From positions 5,913,001-5,977,000 of the forward strand of contig NZ_CP035088.1 in the NCBI RefSeq assembly GCF_004786035.1: a stretch of DNA of 64,000 bases, in the 5' to 3' direction. Shown piece by piece: positions 4,582 through 19,026 of this stretch. The first letter of the stretch is position 1, and every line of letters begins with the position of its first letter. Under the pieces are notes generated by a model. The model saw nothing but the letters and a program-made list of their open reading frames with translations. It ran no database searches and was not told the DNA's origin. This DNA is from Pseudomonas viciae. GTDB taxonomy: Bacteria; Pseudomonadota; Gammaproteobacteria; Pseudomonadales; Pseudomonadaceae. The translations under genes and the position numbers were made by a program.

Positions 4582-5173
4582 AGCCTTAACTCTCTTTGGT
4601 GAGGCCACGACCCTCTCGCTGCTAAACGAGTGGGTGGCAGCTGTACGCGGGTTAGCAGACCGACGAGTTAAGAAATCGGCGCGCCCGGGGGCGCCCCACG
4701 CACAGCCACCATCAAGTGCAGGGATGGGGATACCTGACTGATGAAGCTTGATACGACTCAACTCGACGGGCTGCTAAACCCGATCACTGATGGGCAGTGA
4801 CAGGATCAAAACTACCGACGCGGCCAAGGACGCACAAGCCGGCGGATTCTGGCGTAGTTGTAGGCAATGGCGCAAGGCGATGTCGGTCGTGGCTAGTCTC
4901 GTGGAGTCACGATAAACAGCTGGCCGAAATGTGGCTGATGCACCGCTATCGCGAGCAAGCTCGCTCCCACAGAGGAGCTTGTGTACGTATGTCGCTGGGA
5001 AATGCATTCGCGACCGGCTGCATCCTTGCAGCCAGTCGCGAAGAGGGTTACGACGCGTTGTTCAATGGGGCTTGCGAGCAACGTCGCAATGAATCAGGCG
5101 GGATATCTCGATCATATCCACGACGGTTTTGTCATCGACCGCAAACCCGCTGCCTGAAACCCCGGTGTTGCTG
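4582..5173. other. Intergenic region between the DUF6124-type gene and levansucrase
   Basis: 592 bp without a supported gene. It carries repeat copy B with its REP, and a hairpin at 5008-5041 (15-bp arms with one mismatch, 4-nt loop) that lies downstream of the levansucrase stop and may act as its terminator, although it has no T tract. Confidence 0.5.
4814..4990 (+). repeat. Diverged direct repeat, copy B (core plus intact REP)
   Basis: Second copy of the repeat at 2804-2990: core 4814-4889, then an intact REP at 4941-4980 (ctatcgcgagcaagctcgctcccaca). Confidence 0.7.
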
Positions 5174-6448
5174 TTACTTGAGTGTGACGTCGAGCATCGG
5201 CGGGATGTAACCGTAGTCGTACTCGGCCACCACGAAGGTCTGCTGCCCTTTTATTTTCATGCCCACCGTGGGTGCCTCGGTGCCGCCAACACGAATCTGC
5301 GTGCCGGTTTCGTCGGTCGGTACGCTGTCGATGAAGGAGGTCACCAGGCCGTTTGGCATTACATAGTGCGAGTAGGTCTGGAATGGCTGGGAGGACGGGT
5401 TGCCCAGCACCAGGCCGGATCCGTTCAGCGGCACGTAAGGGCCGAACAGCGAGTCCGCGACGAAACCGTACACGCCGTCCGGCCCGGTCACGCCGTCGGC
5501 GTAGGTGAAGGTATGGCTGATCGTGAACAGGTAGTACTTGCCATCCTGGAACACGAAGTGCGGGCGCTCGGTCTGGTCGTTTACGCCCACGGCGGTCAGC
5601 AGTGGCGGCAACATTTCCCAGTCGTCACCGTCCGCGTCGCGGGCTACGGCGATGCCGACACAGGCGGTCTGGTAGCGCGAGTTGCCGACATCTTCATAAC
5701 CCGGCGGCACATCGCCGATTTCTGCCTCTCCTACTTTGTGCGAGCCGCGCTCACCGGCCACGTTGCCCTCGAACAGCATGTAGAGCTTGCCGTCTTTCGG
5801 GTCGCGGAAAGGCCATGGGTCGCGGAAACCCCAGAACGCGTTTTGTGCTTCGGTCTGGTACATGTTGCCATCGGCCTCGAACAGCGGCTTGACCTTCTCG
5901 AAGCCGACCATGCTGACACCGTGTTCAGTGGTCACCACCCGACCACGCACCTTGACGATGGTCGCGCCTGGGGTGACGGCGGTGTAATACAGGTCCACTT
6001 CACCGCGGTCGTTCAGCAGGATCGGCGTACCGGCCCATTCGCGAGCGGTCGGCGAAACGCCTTCGGCCATCACACGGCCGCCGAACTCCCAGTTCTTGCC
6101 GGTACGCGAGAACCAGTAGTACATCTTTGCCCGACCGTGGCGATCGTTCCAATCGCGGAGGATGTCGTAGTTGCCGTCCTCGTCGAGGTACTGCGGGTCG
6201 TTTGGATGACGATCGGCAGTGAGGGTGAAGATCACCGACCAGCCATCGACGGACGTCACGTTACCGTCCAGGTCGCGCAGGGGCATGGTGTCCCAGATAA
6301 ACACGTCGTTGTTCAGTACCGGGAAATCCGCGCGGACCAGCGGCTGAGTGGTGGTGGGATCATCCGCCCGGACTTTCAACGCGTCAGCACGGGTCCAAAG
6401 GCTGGGTTGATGGGGGGTTACACCGAATTTTTCAGGGTTGGTTTTCAT
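5174..6448 (-). CDS. lsc: Levansucrase (GH68)
   Basis: Secreted or periplasmic enzyme that splits sucrose and builds the beta-2,6-fructan levan, releasing glucose. 424 aa, close to the 431 aa I remember for P. syringae Lsc proteins. The three catalytic acids are in place: nucleophile Asp53 (VFIWDTMPL), transition-state stabiliser Asp210 (GFRDPWPF) and acid/base Glu294 (DQTERPHF). Each is offset by exactly 9 from the Asp62/Asp219/Glu303 numbering I recall for Lsc3. No classical signal peptide is present, as is usual for Gram-negative levansucrases. The SD GAGG lies upstream of the ATG. The gene is monocistronic and has a clear sigma-70-like promoter with a LexA-like palindrome just downstream of the -10 (see sites). 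Confidence 0.96.
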
Positions 6449-6499
6449 GAGTTATTGCCTCGTCCATGAATGGATTCAAATAAATGATGCTTTAGAAAT

Positions 6500-6517
6500 A
6501 CTGTATGCGCATACAGT
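6500..6517 (-). promoter_or_regulatory. LexA/SOS-box-like palindrome upstream of lsc
   Basis: A perfect 18-bp palindrome containing CTGT-N8-ACAG (CTGTATGCGCATACAG), the LexA consensus layout. It begins about 8 nt downstream of the predicted -10, so it would overlap the transcription start. Confidence 0.6.
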
Positions 6518-6525
6518 GAAGCCAC

Positions 6526-6553
6526 CTTATAGAGGCTCATGCATGCGGGTCAA
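6526..6553 (-). promoter_or_regulatory. Predicted sigma-70 promoter of lsc
   Basis: On the minus strand TTGACC (6553-6548), a 16-bp spacer and TATAAG (6531-6526). The start site is expected near 6519, about 70 nt before the lsc ATG. Confidence 0.6.
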
Positions 6554-6890
6554 GCAAAAAAATGCATTTGTGCATAATTTGATTTTTTATTGTAGCTGAT
6601 ACGTTTCAGCTGCGGACGTTTGCAGAAGTTCAATCCTTGGGAGATCGGCGACGTTGGCTGCACGGTCGGTGCAGTGAACGTTACTCAGTGAAAAGCGCGC
6701 GTAACGGGGCAACGGGCGGAAGCAGTGCATAGAAGGATGGGGCAACTGAGCTTGTGCGTTTTGCGCAAAGGCCAATGCAAGGTGGGGAGCCGAAAAAAGC
6801 TTTGATTTGTCGCCGTCGGCGATATGAAAGGAAGCGGGTCGTCGTGAGCTATTCGTGAGGTGGAGAGTCAGCGGTAGTGATGTTGACTGG

Positions 6891-6990
6891 TGCGCCGCCA
6901 TCGCGGGCAAGCCTTGCTCCCACAGGGGTTTGACTTGGTTGCGGGGTTGGGTTTACTGGCCTTTTCGTGAACAAGCCCGCTTCCACAGAG
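6891..6990. repeat. REP pair (degraded)
   Basis: Two REP-like units, gccatcgcgggcaagccttg and the related tcgtgaacaagcccgcttcc, in the same orientation. Confidence 0.65.
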
Positions 6991-7030
6991 GGCTGACACA
7001 ACGTGTCGCTGTTTTTTGATTTCTGCGACA

Positions 7031-7075
7031 CGTTCTCTTCTCATGTCGCTGCCGGCGACATGAGAAGAGAACGTA
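7031..7075. repeat. 20-bp perfect inverted repeat
   Basis: The arms 7031-7050 and 7056-7075 are perfect complements separated by 5 nt. The inner part (TGTCGC tgccg GCGACATGA) recurs in diverged form at 6809-6835 and 7096-7107. It lies 60-110 bp downstream of the aldehyde dehydrogenase stop and could be a terminator hairpin, but it lacks a T tract. Confidence 0.7.
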
Positions 7076-7137
7076 TCGTCAAAATGGTGTTTTAGCGACA
7101 TGAAAGGTAAAGCGACTCCTTCGGACTGACTCGCCCC

Positions 7138-8550
7138 TCACCCCAGCGTATTCAAACAAACCACCTTCGGCTGGGTCATTTCCTCATAGGCAAACCGCAC
7201 CCCTTCCCTGCCCAAACTCCCGTATTTGGAACCACCGAACGGCATCGCATCAAAGCGAAAATCCGACGAGTCATTGATCATCACGCCCCCCGCTTCGATC
7301 CGTCGTGCAGCGCTCATCGCCGTACTGAGGTCGTTGGTGAAAATCCCGGCGTGAAGCGCGTATTCCGGTTCGTTAGCCAACGCGATGGCTTCATCAAACG
7401 TCTCGAAGGGCTGCAACACCACCACCGGCGCGAAGGCTTCATTGCGCCAGAGTCGGCTGGAATGATCGACATTTTCCAGCACCGTGGCGGCGTAGCAGTT
7501 GCCTTGTCGACGATGACCACAGAGCAAGGTCGCGCCTTGTTGCAGGGCTTCGTTGACGACCTGTTCAGCGTTCTGCGCGGCCTGTTGGGTGATCATCGGG
7601 CCGATGTCGGTGCCTGCGAGCAGTGGGTTGCCGACGACGAGGGCTTGAGCCTGGTTGACGAAGCGTTCGCGAAAGGCTGCGTAGATCGGGGCGTGGATGA
7701 GCAGGCGTTGGGTGCCGATGCAGTTTTGCCCGGCGGCCCAGAAGGCGCCGGAGACGCAGCTGTCGACGGCGGCGTCGAGGTTGCAGTCGCCCATGACGAT
7801 GACCGGGGCGTTACCGCCGAGGTCCATGGCGAGTTTTTTCAGGCCGGCGCTGCGGGCGATTTGTTCGCCGGTGACGAAGCCGCCAGTGAAGGAGATCATC
7901 CGCACGTCGCGGGCGCTGACCAGGGCTTTGCCCAGTTCGGCGCCGCCGGTGGCGACGGTGACCACGGTTTCAGGCAGGCCGGCGGCGACCAGGTAGGAGA
8001 CCAGTTTAAGGGCCGACAACGGCGCCAGTTCGGACGGTTTGAGGATCACCGCGTTGCCGCCGGCGATGGCCGGGCCGAGTTTGTGCGCCACCAGGTTCAG
8101 CGGGTCGTTGTAGGGGGTGATGGCGACGATCAGGCCCAGGGGTTCGCGGGTGAACCAGCCCTGGCGCGATTCGGCGCCTTCGTAGGCGTCGAACGGCACG
8201 ATTTCGCCGGCGTTGCGCTTGGCTTCTTCGGCGGAGAGCTTGAGGGTGTTGACGCAGCGTTTGACTTCTTTTTCCGCCTGCTTGAGGGTCTTGCCGGCTT
8301 CGTCGACGATCAGCCGGGCGAAGGCTTTGGCGTCGCGTTCGATGTTCAGCGCGGCGTGTTCGAGGATGCTGGCGCGGCGATGACGTGGCAGTGCGGCGCA
8401 GGCTTGTACGCCGCTGCGTCCGGTCTCCAGCAGGTGTGGGACTTCTGATGCGCAAACGTCCACGACGGTGCCGACGACGCTGCCGTCAAATGGGTTGAGG
8501 ACTTCGATGTGCGGTTCGACAACCGCCAGGGCCAGGCGCGATACGTTCAC
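7138..8550 (-). CDS. NAD(P)-dependent aldehyde dehydrogenase
   Basis: Aldehyde dehydrogenase superfamily enzyme, 470 aa, oxidising an aldehyde to the acid. The catalytic cysteine is Cys277 in AAGQNCIGT, the cofactor loop is ISFTGGF, and KPSELAP is the usual binding block. The position normally held by the general-base Glu of ELGGN is Asp243 (AMDLGGNAP). Overall it resembles the lactaldehyde/phosphonoacetaldehyde dehydrogenase branch. The start is GTG at 8550, overlapping the TGA of the homoserine dehydrogenase gene (GTGA), so the two are translationally coupled. The coupling suggests that its substrate is the product of that enzyme, aspartate semialdehyde, giving aspartate. That assignment is inference. 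Confidence 0.88.
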
Positions 8551-9605
8551 AGGTTGTGCTCCTGTTTGCGGGTTGCCGATTGGTGGATGTGGATGATGTC
8601 CGAGAGCAATGCGAAGGCGGTTTCGGTGCGGCCTGCACCCGGACCGGAGACGGTGACGGCGCCGAGCAGTTCACTGGTGAAAGACACGGCGTTGGTGGCG
8701 CCGCTGATGCTCGCCAGTGGGTGATCGTTGCTCAGCAGGCGCGGTTCGACGCTGGCGCTGATGGAGCCGTCGGCATTGCGGGTGGCGGCGCCGATGAGTT
8801 TCCAGCGTGCGCCGTTTTGCCGGGCTTTTTCGATGTCGTCGAGGCTGAGGGCGGAGATGCCGCGGCAGGTGACGTCGTTGACCGTGAGTTTGGCGTCGAG
8901 CAGTTCGTTGGCCAGGATCACCACTTTCAGGCGCACGTCGTGGCCTTCGACATCTGCCGTTGGGTCGGCTTCGGCGTAGCCCAGGGCTTGGGCCTGGCTG
9001 ACGGCTTCGGCGAACCCGAGGCCGCCTTCCATGCAAGTGAGGACGAAGTTGGAGGTGCCGTTGAGGATGCCTTCGAAACCGCTGATCGAACTGCCGGCCA
9101 GGGATTGTTTGGCCAGGCGAATGACCGGGGTGCCGCTCATCACTGAGCCTTCGTATTCGAAGGCGACGTTGTTGCGCTGGGCCAGGGCCTTGAGCTCGGC
9201 GCCGTGCAGGGCGATGGGGCCTTTGTTGGTGGTGACCACGTGTTTGCCGCGCTCCAGCGCCCAGCGGCAGAACGAAGTGGCGGGTTCGCCATCCACCGGG
9301 TTGGTGAAGGTGGCTTCGGCGATGATGTCGGCGCCGCAGTCTTTGATCACCGATTCGTTGAGGGCGTCGACGGTGCCGCCGGGCAGTTGTGACATGGCGC
9401 CTTTGACGGCGGGTAGTTTGGCCAGTGAGGCGGCGTCGAGGCCGTGGCGGTCCATCACCGAACCGAGGAACAGATCAGTCACGCCGACGATTTTCAGGGT
9501 GAAGCCGAGTTCGGTTTTCCAGCTTTCGTTACGCTCGGCGATGAGCTGAGCCAACGCCCGATTCACACCGCCGAAGCCGACCAGCGCCAGTTTGTATTCA
9601 GTCAT
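8547..9605 (-). CDS. Homoserine dehydrogenase, short form without ACT domain
   Basis: Interconverts homoserine and aspartate semialdehyde. At 352 aa it has the N-terminal Rossmann fold (GFGGVNRAL), the TTNKGPIAL block, and the catalytic half with [11 protein letters not shown] and a [10 protein letters not shown] active-site block. It ends without the C-terminal ACT domain that the biosynthetic Pseudomonas enzyme (about 434 aa) uses for threonine feedback control. Absence of that domain, and the coupled aldehyde dehydrogenase, favour a catabolic, homoserine-oxidising role; this is inference. A terminator upstream (9739-9764) separates it from the Lrp gene, so the pair probably has its own promoter between 9606 and 9738. 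The ATG has a weak SD. Confidence 0.92.
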
Positions 9606-9738
9606 TTTTGTTATGCCCTTGATCCGAGGAGTGGGTTGTTGGGATCTAGGTTAGGGGGGTGGGCTGGGCAGTGAAATATGCCAATTTGCTCTATTTTCTG
9701 GGCGTTTTGACCAGGAGGTGGGCGAAGCGGCAGGCATG

Positions 9739-9764
9739 AAAAAAGCCAACAGGGTTGGCTTTTT
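9739..9764 (-). terminator. Intrinsic terminator after the Lrp-type regulator
   Basis: An A/T-flanked 11-bp stem (aaaaagccaac / gttggcttttt) with a 3-nt loop. It can work in both directions and separates the regulator unit from the homoserine dehydrogenase pair. Confidence 0.85.
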
Positions 9765-9891
9765 AGTTCAGGTTGGCGCGGTCCATTTCTGGTGAGGGGA
9801 TATGTCTGTGGTGCAGGGGGTATCTGTGGCTGGCTGGGGGCTTCTTTTGAACGCATGCTTACCCCTCGCTCCCACAGGGGGGCACTGTTGC

Positions 9892-10329
9892 CTAAACCAC
9901 CGACGACAACACAAACGACGTCACCGTGTTCTCCACCCCAGGCAACGCGGATATTTCCTTCCAAACCTTATGCACCCGCTCCGGATTCGCAGCCCCCACC
10001 CGCAGCATCAAATCAAACTCGCCACTCATCACATCGCACTGCTGCACTTCCGGCATCGCGCGCAGGGCTTGCAGCACTTCCGCGCCGCGCATGCGGTCGT
10101 AGCGGTAGACGAAGATCACCGCGTTGATGTTCGAAGACGCTTGCCCGCCCTCGCCGGTGCGTACGGTGTAGCCCTGGATCGCGCCGTCGCGTTCGAGGCG
10201 TTCGATGCGTTGGCGCACGGCGTTGCGTGACAGGTTGACCTTCGCCGCCAGTTCGGCGTGGGCGGCCCGGGCGTTGAGCCGCAGTTCGGCGATGATGCGT
10301 TCGTCGAGCGGGTCGAGAATTCGCTTCAT
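9892..10329 (-). CDS. Lrp/AsnC-family transcriptional regulator
   Basis: A 145-aa regulator with an N-terminal helix-turn-helix (about residues 5-55, with LSRNAVRQRIERLERDGAI) and a C-terminal RAM ligand-binding domain (about 70-140), the standard Lrp/AsnC plan. Members sense amino acids and control nearby transport or breakdown genes. A strong SD (AGGAGG) precedes the ATG. It follows the threonine-synthase-like gene by 12 nt and is followed by a terminator, so it ends that unit. It is the natural candidate to control the homoserine dehydrogenase/aldehyde dehydrogenase pair, by inference from position. Confidence 0.92.
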   Translation of the reverse strand: MKRILDPLDERIIAELRLNARAAHAELAAKVNLSRNAVRQRIERLERDGAIQGYTVRTGEGGQASSNINAVIFVYRYDRMRGAEVLQALRAMPEVQQCDVMSGEFDLMLRVGAANPERVHKVWKEISALPGVENTVTSFVLSSVV

Positions 10330-10341
10330 GGGGGCCTCCTG

Positions 10342-11721
10342 TTATAGAGCAGCGAGCAGTTGTTGGAGGGCACCGAGGTCGTCCGGCTGGATGCGCTGGA
10401 TCTGCGCCGGGCCATGCTCGGACATGGGACGCGGTTGCGGCGCAATGTTGATCCCCAACTCGCCGAGCAGCACCGCCGATTTGGCCGGTGAAATCTCGCC
10501 CAAGGTCACCATCGGCGCCACCAGGCTGCGGCGGTACAAGCGCGCCGCGAGCACGCCCGTGGCGGTATGCGGGTCGATGACATAGCCGGTGTCGCGATAC
10601 AGCGAGGTGATCTCCTCCAGCGTCTGTTCATCCGTAACCGCATAGGAGTCGATGATCATCCGCGCCTGCAGCCAGAACTCGTTGGCGATGGTCATCTCGC
10701 CAGTGGTTTCGAAGGTTGTCATCAGCGCGCTCACGGCCTGGTCGTCGTGGCCGTAGAGCTCCCAGAGAAACCGCTCCAGGTTGGAAAAGATCGACAGGTC
10801 CATGGCCGGCGACAAAGTCTTGTTGGCGCGCAAGCGGGAGTAGTGGTTCTTCAGGAACAGCTGATGCAGCGCGTCATTCCGGTTGGTCGCGACGATCATC
10901 TGCGTGATCGGCAAGCCCATTTTCTGCGCGATGTAGCCGGCGTAGACCTCGGCAAAACTCGCCGCCGGCACGCTGAAACCGATGGGGCGCTGACCGCCGC
11001 CCAGTTGCAGCACGGCATGGAAGTAAAATACCAACTGCGCCATGACGCTGACCCAGTTGCTGGAGTTGAAACTGATCGTCTCGTGCCCGGTGCACGGCCA
11101 CTGCCGGAACAAGCGGGTAACGAGGGTCTGGCACTCATCGAAGCTGCCATTGACGGCGAACTGATGAACCCGCGGATGGGCCACCGCTTGCAGCTGTTGA
11201 AGTTGTTCCTGCGGCACGCCAGCCTCCGGGTAAATCACCACCACGTCGGTTTCAGCGCAGTGCTTGAAGGCTTCGATGGCGGCCAACCCGGTGTCGCCGT
11301 TGGTGGCGCCGATCACCACGGCGCGGCGCTGGCGTTTGCGCAGGAAGTATTGCACCAGCCGCGCCTGCAACTGCGCGGCAAAATCCTTCGAGGAACGGGT
11401 CGGGCCATGGAACAATTCCAGGACCCATTCGTTGCGATCCACCTGATGCAACGGCGCCAGGGAGCGATGGCTGAACTGGCTGCCGGCGTCCTTGAGCACG
11501 CGCTTGAAATCGGCCTCGGGAATCGCCTCGCCCACGAACGGACGCATCACTCGATAGGCCAGTTCGTCATAGGCCAGGGTCGACCAGTTGGCGATGTCCT
11601 GGGGTTCGAACTGCGGCAACTCAAGCGGGACGAACAGCCCGCCGTCTTCAGCGATGCCCGACAACACGACCTTTTCGAAATCGACCTGTACCGCCGCATT
11701 CCGGGTACTCACATAGCGCAT
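10342..11721 (-). CDS. Threonine-synthase-like PLP enzyme (divergent paralogue)
   Basis: A 459-aa fold-type II PLP enzyme of the threonine synthase family. Family marks are present: LELFHGPT, the PLP lysine Lys112 in SSKDF, GATNGDTG, MDLSIFSNLERFL and PHTATG. The canonical LAFKDF and SVPSGNFG blocks are changed here to RSSKDF and SVPAASFA, so the substrate may not be phosphohomoserine. It lies 16 nt downstream of the LysR gene and away from any thrB/hom operon, so I read it as a paralogue with a specialised role in this cluster rather than the biosynthetic ThrC. Confidence 0.85.
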   Translation of the reverse strand: MRYVSTRNAAVQVDFEKVVLSGIAEDGGLFVPLELPQFEPQDIANWSTLAYDELAYRVMRPFVGEAIPEADFKRVLKDAGSQFSHRSLAPLHQVDRNEWVLELFHGPTRSSKDFAAQLQARLVQYFLRKRQRRAVVIGATNGDTGLAAIEAFKHCAETDVVVIYPEAGVPQEQLQQLQAVAHPRVHQFAVNGSFDECQTLVTRLFRQWPCTGHETISFNSSNWVSVMAQLVFYFHAVLQLGGGQRPIGFSVPAASFAEVYAGYIAQKMGLPITQMIVATNRNDALHQLFLKNHYSRLRANKTLSPAMDLSIFSNLERFLWELYGHDDQAVSALMTTFETTGEMTIANEFWLQARMIIDSYAVTDEQTLEEITSLYRDTGYVIDPHTATGVLAARLYRRSLVAPMVTLGEISPAKSAVLLGELGINIAPQPRPMSEHGPAQIQRIQPDDLGALQQLLAAL

Positions 11722-11737
11722 GGTTGGCTCCGGCCAA

Positions 11738-12628
11738 TTATTTAAAACGATGTGCCTGCTCGACCAGCCAGGTGGAAAACATCACCGCGTCGGGGTGCTG
11801 GTCGGCCCCGGAACCGCGTACCAGGTAGAACGATTCGCTGGCTTCGATGCGCTGGGTGAAGGGCTCGACCAGCCGCCCTTCTTCAAGCAGCTCAGCCACC
11901 ATCGACGAGCGAGCCAGGGCAATGCCCTGCCCCAGTTCGGCCATGCGCAAGGTACACACCAGCGTGTCGAACTGCATGCCGGTCGAAGAATCAACGCCGT
12001 CCGCGCCGACCATGTTCAGCCAATAGCCCCAGCCCTCTTCGTAACCCAACACGTGCAGCAGCGGATGCTTCGCCACGTCCGCCGGCACCTGCAGTGGCGA
12101 ACGCGCCATCAGCGCTGGCGAGCACACCGGAAACAAGGTGTCCCAGGTCAGGCGCTGCGACACCAGGCCTGGCCATTGACCGTGGCCCCAGCGGATTTCC
12201 ATGTCGTCTTCACCGTCCAGTTCCTTGACCCAGATGTTGCTGATGTAGCGGATATCGACCTGGGGATGGGCCTGGCGAAAACTCACCAACTTGGGCGCCA
12301 GCCAGTGCACGAAAAACGCCAGGCTGCCGCGCACCTTGATCGGTCGGCGTTTGTGCTGACCGAAAATCTCATTGGTGCCGACTGCCAGCCGGGTGATCGC
12401 ATCCTGCACCACCGGCAGGTAGGCCTGGCCTTCCTCAGTCAAGCCCAGGCCACGGGGCAAGCGCTTGAACAGCGCCACGCCCAGATGACTTTCCAATTGG
12501 CGGATCTGCTGGCTAACCGCGCCTTGGGTCAAGCACAACTCTTCGGCCGCGTGGGTGAAGTTCAGGCAACGGGCAGACACCTCGAATGCCCGCAGCCAGT
12601 TCAATGGGGGTAACGGCTTTTGCTTCAT
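11738..12628 (-). CDS. LysR-family transcriptional regulator (GcvA-like)
   Basis: A 296-aa LysR regulator: N-terminal winged HTH (about residues 8-67, with FTHAAEELCLTQGAVSQQIRQLE) and a substrate-binding domain of the GcvA/AmpR type (PPLNWLRAFE start, MEIRWGHGQWPG region). It sits between the permease gene upstream (57-nt gap) and the threonine-synthase-like gene downstream (16 nt), all on one strand, so it is probably co-transcribed with one or both and controls the amino-acid cluster. The SD GAGG lies upstream of the ATG. The ligand is unknown. Confidence 0.93.
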   Translation of the reverse strand: MKQKPLPPLNWLRAFEVSARCLNFTHAAEELCLTQGAVSQQIRQLESHLGVALFKRLPRGLGLTEEGQAYLPVVQDAITRLAVGTNEIFGQHKRRPIKVRGSLAFFVHWLAPKLVSFRQAHPQVDIRYISNIWVKELDGEDDMEIRWGHGQWPGLVSQRLTWDTLFPVCSPALMARSPLQVPADVAKHPLLHVLGYEEGWGYWLNMVGADGVDSSTGMQFDTLVCTLRMAELGQGIALARSSMVAELLEEGRLVEPFTQRIEASESFYLVRGSGADQHPDAVMFSTWLVEQAHRFK

Positions 12629-12685
12629 GATCGGACCTCGCTGACACCCCTTCCACCGAGCGCACCGGCCACGCCTCAGCGCTGG

Positions 12686-14128
12686 CTAGAACGCATCGGA
12701 CGGCTGTGCCAAGGGGGCAACCGACAAGCGTTGCTCGCGGCTTTTGCGGGTAATGAAATACACGAAATAGCACCAGGCAATGAAGGGCAAGCCGAAGTAC
12801 AGGGCCACCCGCTGTTCCGGATCGAACGCGATCCCGACACACGCCAGGCTGCAGCATACCAGCGCCCCCAGCGGCACCCACGGATAACCACGAACGCGGA
12901 ACTTGAGGTTGCGAATGTCACCGCCGTTGGCCACATAGTGGCGGCGGAAGGCAATCTGGCTGGCAGCAATGCTCATCCACACCACCACCACGGCCAGGCC
13001 GGAGATCGACACCAGCGCCAGGTAGATGGTGTCGGCGGCAAACACGCTGCTGAGCAACGAAGCGGCGCCACCGGCCATGCTCACAATGATCGCGTTGAGC
13101 GGCGTGCCCATGCGGGTCAGGGCCGAGAACTGCTTGGGCAGGTGGCCTTGGTCACTGAGGGTCCAGAGCATCCGCGAAGCGGCGTACAAACCGGAGTTGG
13201 CCGCCGAGAGCAAGGCGCTGATGATCACGAAGTTCATGATGTCGGCCGAGTACGGAATGCCGATGTAGGTGAAGACGGTGACGAAGGGGCTTTCAACCAG
13301 ACCGGCCTGATCGCGGGGCAACAAGGTCGCCAGGACAAAAATGGTCCCGACAAAGAAGATCGCCAGGCGCAGCACGGTGGTGCGAATGGCGCGCGGCACA
13401 TTGCGTTGCGGATCCTTGGTTTCACCAGCGGCGATGCCGATCAGTTCCGTGCCGGAGAAGGCAAAGGAGACCGCCAGCAGCGTCATCGCAATCGGCATGA
13501 AGCCGGTGGGAAACAACCCTTCGCGAGTGAAGTTGCTCAGCCCGATACTGTGCGCCTGGTCGATGTTCAACAGGCCAAGAATCGCGCCGCCGCCGATCAG
13601 CAGGAACACCACCACCGTGACCACTTTGATCAACGATAGCCAGAACTCGGTCTCGGCAAACAAACGCACCGAGATCACGTTGGTGAGGAACACCACGCCA
13701 GCGAACAGCGCGCTCCAGATCCACACGGGCGTGTCCGGAAACCAGCGTGTCATCAAGATACCGGCGGCGGTGAATTCAGAACCGATTGCCACGGTCCAGG
13801 TCAGCCAGTACAGCCAGGCCACGGTGTAGCCGGTGCCCGGGCCGAGAAAGCGTGTGGCGTAGGTGCTGAACGAACCGGTTTCGGGCATCTGCACCGCCAG
13901 TTCCCCCAGGCACATCATCACCATGTAGACCATGAGTGCGCCGATGATGTAGGCGATCACCGCGCCCATGGGCCCGGCCTGGTTGACGGTGTAGCCGGAG
14001 GTCAGGAACAGCCCGGTACCGATGACGCCACCCAAGGCCAGCATGACGATATGGCGCGTCTGCATTTCCTGCTTGAAGCCGGCCCGCGTATTCGTTTGTT
14101 GTTCTGTTATGGACATGGTTGTTCTCAT
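12686..14128 (-). CDS. Amino-acid permease, S-methylmethionine permease (MmuP)-like
   Basis: APC-superfamily inner-membrane transporter, 480 aa, with 12 predicted membrane helices. From memory it tracks E. coli MmuP closely along its length: [67 protein letters not shown] and [14 protein letters not shown]-methylmethionine or a related amino acid is therefore the best guess for the substrate. Two starts are possible: ATG 14128 and ATG 14116; the latter has GAGAAC at a better distance. It lies 115 nt downstream of the gamma-lyase/synthase gene. Confidence 0.85.
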
Positions 14129-14243
14129 GAAATGTCAGGGCACGCATCTACGTCTGCGCGAGTAAGACAAGCGCCACTGAGCTTTTATTATTATTCCTAT
14201 TCATGAACGCCCCATTCACAGCCTTGTTATGGGGTACCAACTT

Positions 14244-15503
14244 TCAAACTTCAGTTTGCGTCTCGATGTGGACTTCATTGAGGTGCGGATTGAGGGTCTT
14301 TTTGACGAAGGCGAATGCCTGCTTCAGATCGTCCAGTAGATCATCGGTGTCTTCGATACCCACCGAGACCCGCACCAGCCCTTCGGAGATGCCCAGGGCC
14401 AGACGCTCCTCCAGGGTGTTTTCGACATGACTGGTGGTGCGGGCCGGACCGTAGATGGTTTCCACCGCACCAAGATTCCCGGCGCAATGGGCGAAGCGCA
14501 GGCGCGGCAAGAGCACCTTGACCGTGTCCATGCCACCGACCAGGACAAAGCTGACGATGGCGCCGAAGCCGGACATTTGCGCACACGCCACCGCGTGGTT
14601 CGGATGGCTGGGCAGGCCGGGATAATTCACCGACTCCACCAACGGTTCGGTGCAGAGAAACTCCGCCAGGGCCCGGGCGCTGCATTGCTGCTGACGCATG
14701 CGCAGCACCAGGGTTTTCATGCCGCGAATGATCATGTAGGCCGAGAACGGGTCGAGCGACGCGCCGTTGATTTCCCGATAATGCCGAACCTTGGCCATCA
14801 AGGCGGCGCTACCACAGACCAGGCCGCCGAGCACGTCGCCATGGCCACTGAGGAACTTGGTCGCGCTGTGGATCACCACGTCCACGCCCAAGGCCAGCGG
14901 GTTCTGATTGAGCGGCGTGGCGAAGGTATTGTCCGCCACCACCACGGCACCAACGCGCTTGGCCGCTGCCACCAAGCGTGGGATGTCGAGGATTTTCAGG
15001 GTCGGATTGGTCGGCGTTTCCAGGTACACCAACTGGCAGCCCTTGGCGATTTCCCGCTCGATTTCTTCGTGATCGAACGTCTCGCACAAGGTCACGCCCA
15101 CGCCCATGCGTGGCAGGAATTCTTCGAAAATCTTGTTGGTGCCGCCGTAACTGTCCTTGGTCGACACCACTCGATCGCCATGGGCCAGGAAGGTATAAAG
15201 CACGCTGCTGATCGCCGCCATGCCGCTGCTGAACGCCACGGCGGACTCGGCCATTTCCAACTCGCAGATCTTGGCTTCGAGGGTCTCGACGGTGGGGTTG
15301 CTCATGCGGCTGTAGATAAAGCCTGGCGCCTTGCCCAGCGCAACGTCGTACCAGACGTCGATGTCGTCGTAACCGTAAGCGGCACTGACCACGATCGGGG
15401 TTTGCGTGGCGTTATAGGGATGCCTGACTTGTTCCCCGCCCCACACCGCCCGGGTCGCCGCTCCCGCATTCTCAAGCCCTGCGCTGTCAGGTTTATTGTT
15501 CAT
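14244..15503 (-). CDS. Cystathionine gamma-synthase/lyase family PLP enzyme
   Basis: A 419-aa Cys/Met-metabolism PLP enzyme. Visible marks: FIYSRMSNPT (phosphate site of the neighbouring subunit), SSGMAAISS, ETPTNPTL, ADNTFATP, and the PLP lysine Lys216 in HSATKFLSGHGD. The residue equivalent to Cys116 of P. putida methionine gamma-lyase falls in DSYGGTNK and is not Cys, so a simple methionine gamma-lyase is unlikely. Family reactions are gamma-replacement or gamma-elimination on O- or S-substituted homoserine. The ATG at 15503 is chosen over the in-frame GTG at 15518. With an MmuP-like permease next to it, S-methylmethionine is a plausible substrate, by inference. Confidence 0.87.
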   Translation of the reverse strand: MNNKPDSAGLENAGAATRAVWGGEQVRHPYNATQTPIVVSAAYGYDDIDVWYDVALGKAPGFIYSRMSNPTVETLEAKICELEMAESAVAFSSGMAAISSVLYTFLAHGDRVVSTKDSYGGTNKIFEEFLPRMGVGVTLCETFDHEEIEREIAKGCQLVYLETPTNPTLKILDIPRLVAAAKRVGAVVVADNTFATPLNQNPLALGVDVVIHSATKFLSGHGDVLGGLVCGSAALMAKVRHYREINGASLDPFSAYMIIRGMKTLVLRMRQQQCSARALAEFLCTEPLVESVNYPGLPSHPNHAVACAQMSGFGAIVSFVLVGGMDTVKVLLPRLRFAHCAGNLGAVETIYGPARTTSHVENTLEERLALGISEGLVRVSVGIEDTDDLLDDLKQAFAFVKKTLNPHLNEVHIETQTEV

Positions 15504-15664
15504 TAGGACTACTCGCACTCAAGGGGTGAACGTTGAGCCATTCACCGGATCTGGGGGCCAATATAGGGAAAAGCCGCACGCCCGAGAAACGATGTTATCG
15601 GTGCCAAAGGGCTGCTTTTTTTAATGGCTGAATGCGAAGTAGCGACCGGTAAATCACCGACAAA

Positions 15665-15697
15665 CCTGTGGGAGCGGGCTTGCTCGCGAATGCGGTG
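15665..15697. repeat. REP element
   Basis: A single REP with the core gggagcgggcttgctcgcga, in the space between the gamma-lyase/synthase promoter and the GNAT stop. Confidence 0.85.
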
Positions 15698-15757
15698 GGT
15701 CAGCCACCCTTGATGCTGACTGACACACCGCACTCCCCTACCCAAACGACACCCGAA

Positions 15758-16216
15758 CTATAAACACCGCGCCATAAGCCACTGCTCCTTCCCCCAAGCC
15801 TCAAACCGCTCCAACACTTCCCAACCCAGCCTGGCGTAATAATCACTCTGGTTATGGGTGTGCAAGAACAGGGTGATGATTCCCACCTCCCGCGCATGGC
15901 TGCAGATGCCTTCGATCAACTGCGCCGCAAGCCCTCTGCGTCGGGCACTGGGGGCGACGAGCACGCAAGCCAGCCACGGCCCCAGCTCTGGCCGGTCCGG
16001 CAGGTCGTGACTGGCCAGTGAAGCACCACCGAGCAACTGGCCGTGTTCCATGGCGATCAGGCACTTCCAGCGCCCATCGCGCTGCCCTGCGGCGAACTCC
16101 TGCTGCCAACTGGCGAGGGATTGCTGGGCAAATTCATAACTGAATTCGCGATGGAGCCACTCGGCCATCTGGTCGCATTTATCCATGTGGTTAGCGAGCC
16201 AATCCATTTGCGGCAT
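15758..16216 (-). CDS. GNAT-family N-acetyltransferase
   Basis: A 152-aa Gcn5-related acetyltransferase. The acetyl-CoA loop is seen as VLVAPSARRRGLAAQLIEG, followed by the typical strand and helix LFLHTHNQSDYYARLGWE. The substrate cannot be told. The ATG at 16216 is preceded by AAGGAG at 8 nt; an in-frame GTG at 16225 touches the SD and was rejected. It stands alone between REP elements. Confidence 0.9.
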   Translation of the reverse strand: MPQMDWLANHMDKCDQMAEWLHREFSYEFAQQSLASWQQEFAAGQRDGRWKCLIAMEHGQLLGGASLASHDLPDRPELGPWLACVLVAPSARRRGLAAQLIEGICSHAREVGIITLFLHTHNQSDYYARLGWEVLERFEAWGKEQWLMARCL

Positions 16217-16280
16217 TTGAAACACTCCTTATTTGTCCTGGAGAGGGTTGGCGGGTCAGCAGGCTGTCGGCCTGTTCTGG

Positions 16281-16316
16281 TGTGCCGCTATCGCGAGCAG
16301 GCTCACTTCCACAGGT
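16281..16316. repeat. REP element
   Basis: REP with the core gctatcgcgagcaggctcac, slightly degraded. Confidence 0.75.
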
Positions 16317-16398
16317 TTTTCGTAGTTTGATCCTGAATGGACACACCACCAACCGCTCCTGTGGTATCGGCCAATGTGAATCAGTTGAAACACAGAAC

Positions 16399-16489
16399 CT
16401 GTGGGAGCGGGCTTGCTCGCGAATGCGGTAGACCAGCCACCATGGATGTTGACTGAAACCCCGCATTCGCGAGCAAGCCCGCTCCCACA
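16399..16489. repeat. REP doublet (REPIN)
   Basis: Two inverted REPs (gtgggagcgggcttgctcgc and its complement) about 40 bp apart, able to fold into one long hairpin. Confidence 0.9.
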
Positions 16490-16633
16490 TTGGTTGTTTT
16501 TTGCGCAGGTAATTTCGTTTTAGATGCCTACCCGCGCTCATTCTCAAGAAATACCCGCCAGCAAGCCCTCAACCTATCGTAATCTCGCACCTGTATAAGC
16601 CCCTGCCCCGCAACCGGCCGAGATCTCACCCCG

Positions 16634-17257
16634 ATGCCCTCCATTTACCAACTCAAGCCCGCCTTCCAAAACCTGCTGCGCCCTATGGTTCAACGCCTTT
16701 ACAACAACGGCGTCACCGCCAACCAAGTCACGGTGCTCGCAGGCATCGTTTCAGTCCTGGTCGGTGCGGTGATCGCGTGGTTCGCCAGCCATCCGTGGAT
16801 CTTCGTCCTGGTGCCGATCTGGATGTTCCTGCGCATGGCGTTGAACGCCGTGGATGGCATGTTGGCGCGGGAGTTTGGTCAGCAATCGCATCTGGGCGCC
16901 TACCTCAATGAGCTATGCGATATCATCGCCGACGCTGCCCTGATCCTGCCTTTTGCCCTGATTCCCGATGCCAGTCTGTTGCTCGTGTTGTTGGTCACGC
17001 TGTTGGCGTTGTTCAGCGAATACGCAGGCGTGCTGGGGGCGATGGTCGGGGCGTCGCGGCGCTATGACGGGCCGATGGGCAAGAGTGATCGCGCCTTTGT
17101 GTTGGGCGTGTTGGCGACCGGTATTGCCCTGGGTTGGCTCGGGGCGCTGTGGGTTGATGGTGTGATGGCGGTGGTTGCCGCCCTGCTGGTTTATACCTTG
17201 GTCAATCGGGTCCGTCATGGCCTGAGCCAAGTGAAGGAAAACGCTCCCTCAGCATAA
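16634..17257 (+). CDS. CDP-alcohol phosphatidyltransferase family protein (YnbA-like)
   Basis: A 207-aa inner-membrane enzyme of the CDP-alcohol phosphatidyltransferase family, with about five to six membrane segments. Such enzymes join CDP-diacylglycerol to an alcohol with release of CMP. The motif appears as NAVDGMLAREFGQQSHLGA followed by NELCD; the first and third aspartates of the canonical DxxDGxxAR...GxxxDxxxD are Asn. I remember the same changes in E. coli YnbA. It is the first gene of an operon with all ynbABCD counterparts. The alcohol acceptor is unknown. Confidence 0.9.
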   Translation: MPSIYQLKPAFQNLLRPMVQRLYNNGVTANQVTVLAGIVSVLVGAVIAWFASHPWIFVLVPIWMFLRMALNAVDGMLAREFGQQSHLGAYLNELCDIIADAALILPFALIPDASLLLVLLVTLLALFSEYAGVLGAMVGASRRYDGPMGKSDRAFVLGVLATGIALGWLGALWVDGVMAVVAALLVYTLVNRVRHGLSQVKENAPSA

Positions 17258-17268
17258 AGGAACTTGCA

Positions 17269-19026
17269 ATGCGCGAAGCCCAGGAATTGACGTTCACCAC
17301 CCACGATGGCGTGGAATTGTTCTACCGGCACTGGCCGGCTGTCGATGCGGCGGCGGGCGAACCCCGCCAAGCTGTGTTGTTGTTTCACCGTGGTCATGAA
17401 CACTCCGGGCGCATTGCGCACCTGGTGGATGAGCTGAATTTGCCCGGCTTCGACTTTTTCGCCTGGGACGCACGAGGCCATGGCCAGTCGCCGGGTGCTC
17501 GTGGCGACAGCCCGAGTTTTGCCACCAGTGCACGGGATGTGCAGACCTTCTGCGACCACATCGGCGCGACGCATCAGATCGACGAGGCGAACATCGCCGT
17601 GGTCGCGCAAAGCGTCGGGGCGGTGATCGCGTCCACGTGGGTCCACGATTACGCGCCGCGCATTCGTTCGCTGGTGCTGGCGTCGCCGGCGTTCAAGGTC
17701 AAGCTCTACGTGCCGTTCGCTCGCTCCGGCCTGGCGCTGATGCGCAAGTTTCGCGGCAACTTTTTCGTCAACAGCTACGTCAAGGCGAAGTTCCTCAGCC
17801 ATGACCCCGAGCGCGTGGCGTCCTACGACAGCGACCCGCTGATCACCAAGGCGATTTCGGTGAACGTGCTGCTGGGTCTGTACGAAGCCGCCGACCGCGT
17901 GGTGGCCGATGCCCAGGCGATCCAGGTGCCGACGCAGCTATTGATCTCCGGTTCGGACTTTGTCGTGCACCGCAAACCCCAGGAGCAGTTCTTCGAGCGG
18001 CTGGGCAGTGTGCACAAGGAGAAGCACATCCTGCCGGGGTTCTTCCACGACACCCTCGGCGAGAAGAACCGCGCGCCGGCCATCGCCAGTGCCCGTCGCT
18101 TCATCCTGCAAAACTTTGCCCGACCATTGAACCGCCCGTCCCTGCTGGACGCCGATCGCCTGGGCGTGACCTGCGCCGAAGCCGAAACCCTGGCGACACC
18201 GCTGCCGCACAATTCGCTGCGTGACCTTTACTGGCGCATGACCCGCGCCAGCATGCGCTTTGGCAGTAAATTGTCTGCGGGTGTGAAGTTGGGCTTCGAC
18301 ACCGGGTTCGACTCCGGCAGCACCCTGGATTACGTCTACCGCAATCGCCCCACCGGCACCTCGGCCGTGGGTAAAATGATTGACCAGAACTACCTGAACT
18401 CCATCGGCTGGCGCGGTATTCGCCAGCGCAAATTGAACGTCGAGGAGCTGCTGCGCCTGGCCATGGGCAAGTTGCGCGAACAGGACCGCGAGGTGCGCAT
18501 CGTCGACATCGCCGCCGGCCATGGCCGCTACATTCTCGAAGCGCTGCAAGGCGTCAGCCCGTTGCCCGAGTCGATCCTGCTGCGCGACTACAGCGACATC
18601 AACGTGCGCGACGGCAGTGCGCTGATCGTTGAAAAAGGCTTGGGCGATATCGCCCGGTTCGTCAAAGGTGATGCCTTTGATCGCCAGGATCTGGCGGCGC
18701 TGCAGCCAAAACCGACCCTCGCCGTGGTGTCCGGTTTGTATGAGCTGTTTGCCGATAACCAGATGGTCGGCGGCTCCCTCGCCGGTTTGGCCGAAGCGGT
18801 GGAGCCGGGTGGTTTCCTGATCTACACCGGCCAGCCGTGGCACCCACAGTTGGAACTGATCGCCCGCGCCCTCACCAGCCACCGTGCTGGGCAGGCTTGG
18901 GTGATGCGTCGGCGCACGCAGGCGGAGATGGATCAACTGGTTGAGGCGGCGGGCTTCCGCAAGATCACCCTGCGGGTCGATGAATGGGGCATCTTCAGCG
19001 TTTCGCTGGCCCAGCGAGTGCAGTAA
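17269..19026 (+). CDS. Alpha/beta hydrolase - SAM methyltransferase fusion (YnbC-like)
   Basis: A 585-aa two-domain protein, the length I recall for E. coli YnbC. Residues 1-290 are an alpha/beta hydrolase of the monoacylglycerol-lipase type, with nucleophile Ser115 in VVAQSVGAV and an oxyanion-side HRGHEHS loop. Residues about 390-585 are a class I SAM methyltransferase with motif I VDIAAGHGRYILEAL. It lies 11 nt downstream of the YnbA-like gene and shares TAATG with the next, so expression is coupled. A role in deacylating and methylating a phospholipid or its head group is plausible, but no substrate is known to me. Confidence 0.9.
   Translation: MREAQELTFTTHDGVELFYRHWPAVDAAAGEPRQAVLLFHRGHEHSGRIAHLVDELNLPGFDFFAWDARGHGQSPGARGDSPSFATSARDVQTFCDHIGATHQIDEANIAVVAQSVGAVIASTWVHDYAPRIRSLVLASPAFKVKLYVPFARSGLALMRKFRGNFFVNSYVKAKFLSHDPERVASYDSDPLITKAISVNVLLGLYEAADRVVADAQAIQVPTQLLISGSDFVVHRKPQEQFFERLGSVHKEKHILPGFFHDTLGEKNRAPAIASARRFILQNFARPLNRPSLLDADRLGVTCAEAETLATPLPHNSLRDLYWRMTRASMRFGSKLSAGVKLGFDTGFDSGSTLDYVYRNRPTGTSAVGKMIDQNYLNSIGWRGIRQRKLNVEELLRLAMGKLREQDREVRIVDIAAGHGRYILEALQGVSPLPESILLRDYSDINVRDGSALIVEKGLGDIARFVKGDAFDRQDLAALQPKPTLAVVSGLYELFADNQMVGGSLAGLAEAVEPGGFLIYTGQPWHPQLELIARALTSHRAGQAWVMRRRTQAEMDQLVEAAGFRKITLRVDEWGIFSVSLAQRVQ

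Follow-up and report, generated by a model that had tools for sequence, protein, structure and literature searches.

The question raised by this locus is which compound is taken up and broken down by the products of seven neighbouring genes of Pseudomonas viciae, and what it becomes. The genes lie in a stretch of 64,000 nucleotides (contig NZ_CP035088.1, positions 5,913,001 to 5,977,000), which is called the window in what follows. In the order of transcription they encode a pyridoxal-phosphate (PLP)-dependent enzyme, a permease, a LysR-type regulator, a threonine-synthase-like (ThrC-like) protein, an Lrp-type regulator, a homoserine dehydrogenase (HSD) and an aldehyde dehydrogenase (ALDH; Table 1). 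Comparison with related genomes establishes the gene content of the cluster, its conservation, a set of exit genes held in common with other clusters, and a PLP enzyme distinct from the one found in regions linked to CtdA. That homoserine is formed and then oxidised to aspartate, whatever the starting compound, is in our judgement very probable, and S-methylmethionine (SMM) has about an even chance of being the main substrate.

The favoured arrangement consists of two modules, for which each reaction, the substrate and the roles of the regulators are what we infer. In the entry module, the permease would import SMM, as its likeness to MmuP suggests, and the PLP enzyme, a member of the PRK08249 family, would eliminate the gamma-substituent as dimethyl sulfide and add water to yield homoserine; this gamma-elimination with hydration is suggested by the enzyme family, by analogy with canavanine breakdown and by the HSD neighbours. 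The LysR regulator would respond to the substrate. In the exit module, the HSD would turn homoserine into aspartate semialdehyde, the coupled ALDH would turn the latter into aspartate, and the ThrC-like protein and Lrp, as a pair, would control or assist the process. LysR is tentatively assigned to the entry module and Lrp to the exit module because of the module with which each of them travels.

The association of the seven genes goes beyond chance, since 70 of 80 related loci keep all of them in the same order and on the same strand. These loci are the best 80 of 102 stretches confirmed in a scan of species genomes, a selection that favours close relatives. Gene calls in the fetched loci, these and those described below, are simple choices of open reading frames (ORFs), among which antisense ORFs were sometimes picked. 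The initial annotation had placed seven genes on one strand and named their families, and both points stand: the frames are open and on the minus strand, and Pfam and NCBIfam scans agree with the family assignments of all seven. As for the incomplete loci, L040, L068, L071 and L099 run into the end of a contig (L071 also has no permease match), L078 has its HSD gene about 5 kb further away and its ALDH gene out of view, L067 has neither HSD nor ALDH in the 6 kb seen, and L094, L102, L113 and L114, which are not from Pseudomonas, hold only the PLP enzyme and LysR genes of the seven. LysR copies that are 64–70% identical adjoin the PLP gene in these last four loci and in L142, L150 and L151. Within the genus sample, the PLP enzyme was found at E <= 1e-120 in 32 of 199 genomes; wider sampling, with the window's own genome counted, gave relatives in 6 of 341 genomes for the order, 4 of 369 for the class and 3 of 398 for the phylum. 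When the neighbouring ORFs were clustered, the groups consisted mostly of antisense ORFs and core genes; the one neighbour considered further below is a gene of the homocysteine S-methyltransferase family.

The PLP-lysine motif is present in all 80 orthologs of the PLP enzyme, and sequence comparison places methionine gamma-lyases nearest to it in the PDB. These relatives speak for ordinary sulfur amino acid metabolism, in which the enzyme would be a methionine gamma-lyase or a transsulfuration enzyme and its neighbours would not form one pathway. Such a reading is improbable, given that the enzyme scores below the cut-offs of both the methionine gamma-lyase model TIGR01328 (378.2 bits against 549.7) and the cystathionine gamma-synthase model (327.6 bits against 504.55), and that the seven genes remain together in the 70 loci already described. 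Moreover, the YGC motif of four aligned methionine gamma-lyases, whose cysteine is important in that enzyme, is YGG in the window enzyme. A second motif, Y-R-M/N, reads YSRM or YGRM in 80 of 80 members of the window clade and YSRN or YGRN in four aligned outside relatives. In the tree, which excludes L139 (stop codons inside the homolog match) and L152, the window-type and CtdA-linked PLP enzymes form separate 100/100 clades; the outgroup branches are very long, and reliance is placed only on these two clades. No function for any PRK08249 enzyme appeared among the literature matches listed, in a search outside which subscription papers largely fell. One outside relative (L140, 58% identical), at 8507–10902, lies between Lrp-like and LysE/RhtB-like exporter genes (names read from ORFs), and an amino acid exporter as neighbour would fit an enzyme that makes homoserine.

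The exit from homoserine is suggested by the two genes at the end of the cluster. The function of the HSD is predicted from its model score (Table 1), and the lack of an ACT feedback domain, claimed in the initial annotation, is borne out by the Pfam scan, which finds only the NAD-binding and Homoserine_dh domains. The oxidation of aspartate semialdehyde is a putative activity of the ALDH, for which the genomic context argues; no NCBIfam equivalog among its best 25 matches is over its cut-off. Its motif MDLGGNAP carries aspartate at the position of glutamate, the usual general base, in 70 of 72 clustered ORFs (ELGGKNP in the remaining two), and the same motif occurs in all three CtdA-linked ALDH copies checked. 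HSD and ALDH genes stand beside a PLP enzyme in three settings, namely the window, the CtdA-linked regions and an ectoine operon of Priestia. This homology supports the route proposed at the outset, from uptake through loss of a side group to homoserine and aspartate; within that route SMM is only the favoured compound, with diaminobutyrate as a rival.

The recurrence of the back half in CtdA-linked clusters is new with respect to the initial annotation. In 33 Pseudomonas genomes there are 38 non-PheT B3/4 matches, and 20 of the regions were fetched; the B3/4 gene is 67–100% identical to that of L131 in 18 of them, the other two being L132 (29%) and L133 (33%). Homologs of the ThrC-like protein (37–57%), Lrp (60–69%) and ALDH (66–71%) occur in six of the 20 regions (L118, L123, L125, L126, L129 and L131), and an HSD homolog (67–68%) in all of these except L129; the set of ThrC-like, Lrp and ALDH genes was not found in the stretch seen of the remaining 14. 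A PLP enzyme 34–37% identical to that of the window is present in five of the six, the exception being L126, where the fetched stretch ends nearby. The window's HSD and ALDH are 67% and 70% identical to the CtdA-linked copies. Homoserine dehydrogenase and aspartate-semialdehyde dehydrogenase activities reportedly belong to the canavanine pathway described by Hauth and colleagues in 2022. The six regions with their CtdA-type B3/4 gene are the setting of canavanine utilisation, as described in PMC10018355 and, reportedly, in the 2022 work.

Could the cluster of the window then be a canavanine utilisation operon itself? The exit genes are indeed the same, and in both cases they accompany a PLP enzyme of the Cys/Met family. 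The window's PLP enzyme, however, is 36–37% identical to the CtdA-linked one and falls in the other clade, its permease differs (28–31%), a LysR gene is added, and a CtdA-like gene is absent from the window and the 80 loci. In addition, five of the six CtdA-linked genomes (G079, G112, G153, G165 and G173) also encode the window-type PLP enzyme and thus carry both kinds of cluster, and of the two B3/4 matches in the window's genome, one lies in a frame of PheT size and the other in a fusion with a TrpB-like part. The canavanine operon is consequently rejected, as the PLP enzyme is not orthologous to the CtdA-linked one and the CtdA-like gene is missing, and we consider it highly improbable. Since the exit genes recur beside another PLP enzyme, the two clusters are paralogous, with a common exit module and a different entry enzyme. 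The exchangeable entry enzyme probably makes homoserine, which the common module probably oxidises to aspartate. The earlier statement that no described pathway has exactly these parts therefore holds for the gamma-lyase, which is a different one, but not for the back half, which the canavanine pathway appears to use as well. If this is correct, the canavanine pathway would be one branch of a modular scheme for plant non-protein and sulfonium amino acids.

Between the ALDH and permease genes of the CtdA-linked cluster of L125 (3767–4147) there is a Rid-family gene (100 bits, just below the cut-off of 106.25); proteins of this family remove reactive enamines, of which gamma-lyases are a possible source. 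The fusion in the window's genome (L005, 217–2196; contig C1 near 4010855) is a frame of 659 residues in which, as read from the ORF, a TrpB-like PLP enzyme is combined with an editing-like B3/4 domain (PF03483), and G160 has a frame of 660 residues with the same PF03483 match.

In either type of cluster the ThrC-like gene directly precedes that of Lrp, and the initial annotation was right to describe its product as changed. The PLP lysine is kept in 76 of 76 orthologs, and in all 76 the GNFG loop, which has a role in threonine synthase, is lost and replaced by a loop of the ASFA or ASSA type, so the cofactor site is remodelled. The CtdA-linked copies (L118, L123, L126, L129 and L131) present the reverse situation, with glutamine in place of the PLP lysine and GNFG kept in five of five, and these proteins, although conserved beside Lrp, are unlikely to be conventional PLP enzymes. 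A canonical threonine synthase is encoded elsewhere in the window's genome (269.6 bits). As a conjecture, the ThrC-like protein might serve Lrp as its partner or sensor, or it might scavenge vinylglycine.

With regard to the substrate, SMM is favoured because the permease resembles MmuP and a methyltransferase gene adjoins the PLP gene. Over 465 residues the permease shares 57% identity with E. coli MmuP, and it scores 657.5 bits against the MmuP model PRK11387, the next family reaching 401.6. In nine of the 80 loci, the gene immediately upstream of the PLP gene belongs to the homocysteine S-methyltransferase family; it is on the same strand in six loci of the P. putida group and on the opposite one in L094, L113 and L114. 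The window's genome has a homolog of this gene elsewhere, 71–72% identical to the six P. putida-group copies and divergent from genes for an ABC binding protein and permease, and the same trio stands upstream of the PLP gene in the six loci (binding protein 85–87% identical, permease 75–77%). Scans of 199 genomes for the PLP enzyme and 198 for the methyltransferase found the latter in 28 of the 32 genus genomes that encode the PLP enzyme, against 70 of the 166 that do not (odds ratio 9.6, Fisher p 1.6e-6, a statistic that ignores kinship). Regarding the chemistry, PMC13209565 describes SMM in animal organs as being metabolised either by methylation of homocysteine or by hydrolysis to dimethyl sulfide and homoserine.

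Several findings weigh against SMM. The score of the permease is under the MmuP equivalog cut-off of 716, and the two of the nine neighbouring methyltransferases that were scanned reach 120.4 and 135.5 bits, under the MmuM (PRK09485) cut-off of 215, with about 28% identity to E. coli MmuM. Their adjacency to the PLP gene is confined to those nine loci, from few lineages, and four of the 32 genomes with the PLP enzyme have no methyltransferase at all. ABC transporter genes occur in the marine relatives L142, L150 and L151, from which the methyltransferase, HSD and ALDH are missing, and the binding proteins scanned in L142 and L094 resemble those for cystine and for lysine, arginine and ornithine. 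Finally, three of the six outside relatives of the PLP enzyme whose surroundings were seen belong to ectoine operons.

The comparison with mmuPM of E. coli (L143) illustrates both sides, as the permease and the S-methyltransferase-family neighbour are alike, although they score under the MmuP and MmuM cut-offs. According to PMC3228920, E. coli turns SMM into methionine, whereas here the PLP enzyme, HSD and ALDH suggest use of its carbon and nitrogen through homoserine. Among the literature matches listed, with subscription papers again largely outside the search, there was no bacterial gene for the conversion of SMM to homoserine. To our knowledge, no bacterial gene has been assigned to the formation of dimethyl sulfide and homoserine from SMM, nor to the formation of homoserine from diaminobutyrate; should our reading hold, candidate genes for both conversions would be at hand. 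Import of free homoserine is less likely, since it would leave the conserved PLP enzyme without an evident task. In Rhizobium leguminosarum the substrate is homoserine itself, and there, according to PMC10228743 and PMC3333776, an HSD is discussed in the degradative direction.

It is also conceivable, if rather unlikely, that the entry enzyme acts on some other gamma-substituted amino acid, such as an O-acylhomoserine, a seleno-analogue or an unknown plant compound, with the same exit from homoserine to aspartate. The range of substrates among related PLP gamma-enzymes is wide, and one exit module follows different entry enzymes, while the MmuP-like permease and the links with the methyltransferase point to SMM instead.

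The ectoine operons make L-2,4-diaminobutyrate a serious rival, because they account for half of those six outside relatives (52–61% identical). The PLP enzyme would in this case convert diaminobutyrate into ammonia and homoserine, and the permease would import diaminobutyrate or a similar cationic amino acid. In Priestia (L135/L136) the operon comprises EutB, an M24 gene, a cyclodeaminase, an M20 gene under the DoeB2 cut-off, HSD, ALDH and PRK08249; in Klebsiella (L137) EhuABCD, DoeA and DoeB accompany the PRK08249 gene; and in L152 (Pseudomonadales) the PLP enzyme is found with DoeA-like and DoeB-like genes in a locus cut by the contig end. Their PRK08249 enzymes are 60%, 54% and 59% identical to that of the window, respectively, and HSD (46%) and ALDH (48%) adjoin only in Priestia. 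What distinguishes these operons from the window is their ectoine hydrolase and deacetylase genes, and no MmuP-like permease was seen in them. Breakdown of ectoine passes through diaminobutyrate, as stated in PMC7192451.

In the ectoine cases seen, no transaminase of the DoeD kind adjoins PRK08249. The Klebsiella stretch does hold a "PLP-dependent aminotransferase family protein", which we take to be the MocR-type regulator EnuR, and L152 has a BioA-looking gene 2.4 kb away (read from ORFs). The reverse is found in two Pseudomonas ectoine regions (L158 and L160, the two read of three fetched), where ALDH and aminotransferase-like genes follow DoeB and PRK08249 is absent (names read from ORFs); these operons also encode a homolog, 56–58% identical, of the Klebsiella protein, besides the transaminase-like gene. 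Because operons with PRK08249 lack DoeD and the Pseudomonas operons show the opposite, this distribution suggests that PRK08249 stands in for the transaminase and makes homoserine from diaminobutyrate, and a second route of ectoine breakdown, via homoserine, is possible.

For the window itself the evidence points the other way. DoeA is over its cut-off in seven of 31 genomes that have the cluster and in four of 31 that lack it (p 0.51; these 62 were drawn from the genus sample and comprise all of its 32 positives except G076), and the window's genome has no DoeA over the cut-off, so that an ectoine link for this genome is not supported. The relatives L138, L139 and L140 (58–61%) show no ectoine genes, the Y-R-M/N motif sets the window clade apart from the relatives aligned with it, the permease resembles MmuP, and ammonia is, in general chemical terms, a poor leaving group. 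Diaminobutyrate is thus a minority possibility for the window, and SMM continues to be preferred.

Another way of considering SMM and diaminobutyrate is that both are positively charged at the gamma position, and one family could therefore serve both. More speculatively, and with less confidence than we place in SMM, PRK08249 may be an unrecognised family of homoserine-forming gamma-lyases for cationic gamma-substituents, acting on diaminobutyrate in ectoine operons without a transaminase and on SMM in Pseudomonas and marine bacteria, where its gene would account for dimethyl sulfide that microbes release from SMM. It would feed, where HSD and ALDH are present, an exchangeable homoserine-to-aspartate module that also serves canavanine, in which the ThrC-like partner is remodelled, possibly non-catalytic, and paired with Lrp.

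Table 1. Genes of the cluster in order of transcription, with their positions in the window.
Feature	Positions	Strand	Basis
PLP-dependent Cys/Met-family enzyme, proposed homoserine-forming gamma-lyase	14244..15518	-	NCBIfam PRK08249, cystathionine gamma-synthase family protein, 732.1 bits (cut-off 600)
APC amino acid permease, MmuP-like	12686..14128	-	Pfam/NCBIfam; 57% identity to E. coli MmuP
LysR-type regulator	11738..12628	-	Pfam; accompanies PLP gene
Threonine-synthase-like (ThrC-like) protein, altered GNFG loop	10342..11721	-	TIGR00260, 192.5 bits (cut-off 167.1)
Lrp/AsnC-type regulator	9892..10329	-	Pfam
Homoserine dehydrogenase (HSD) without ACT domain	8547..9605	-	PRK06270, 468.2 bits (cut-off 373)
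Aldehyde dehydrogenase (ALDH), proposed aspartate semialdehyde oxidiser	7138..8550	-	Pfam/NCBIfam family match

The seven genes occupy positions 7138–15518. The longest ORF of the PLP gene begins with GTG at 15518, and an internal ATG at 15503 is an equally possible start. From the PLP gene onwards, the successive gaps measure 115, 57, 16, 12 and 286 bases, the last one separating Lrp from HSD, and the GTG start of the ALDH gene overlaps the end of the HSD gene by 4 bases. Because of these gap sizes, HSD and ALDH may form a transcription unit separate from the upstream genes. An Rfam scan of positions 5000–19000 gave no riboswitch match at the gathering threshold, matches in a promoter and terminator scan were no commoner than in shuffled sequence, and no tRNA was found in the window. 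The cluster is flanked by a GNAT gene (15758–16225), matched in one of the 80 loci, and, downstream, by a gene of the GH68 levansucrase/invertase family on the minus strand (5174–6448; Pfam 516 bits), near the cluster in three of the 80 (L041, L042 and L044); on account of these low counts, both genes are placed outside the conserved unit.

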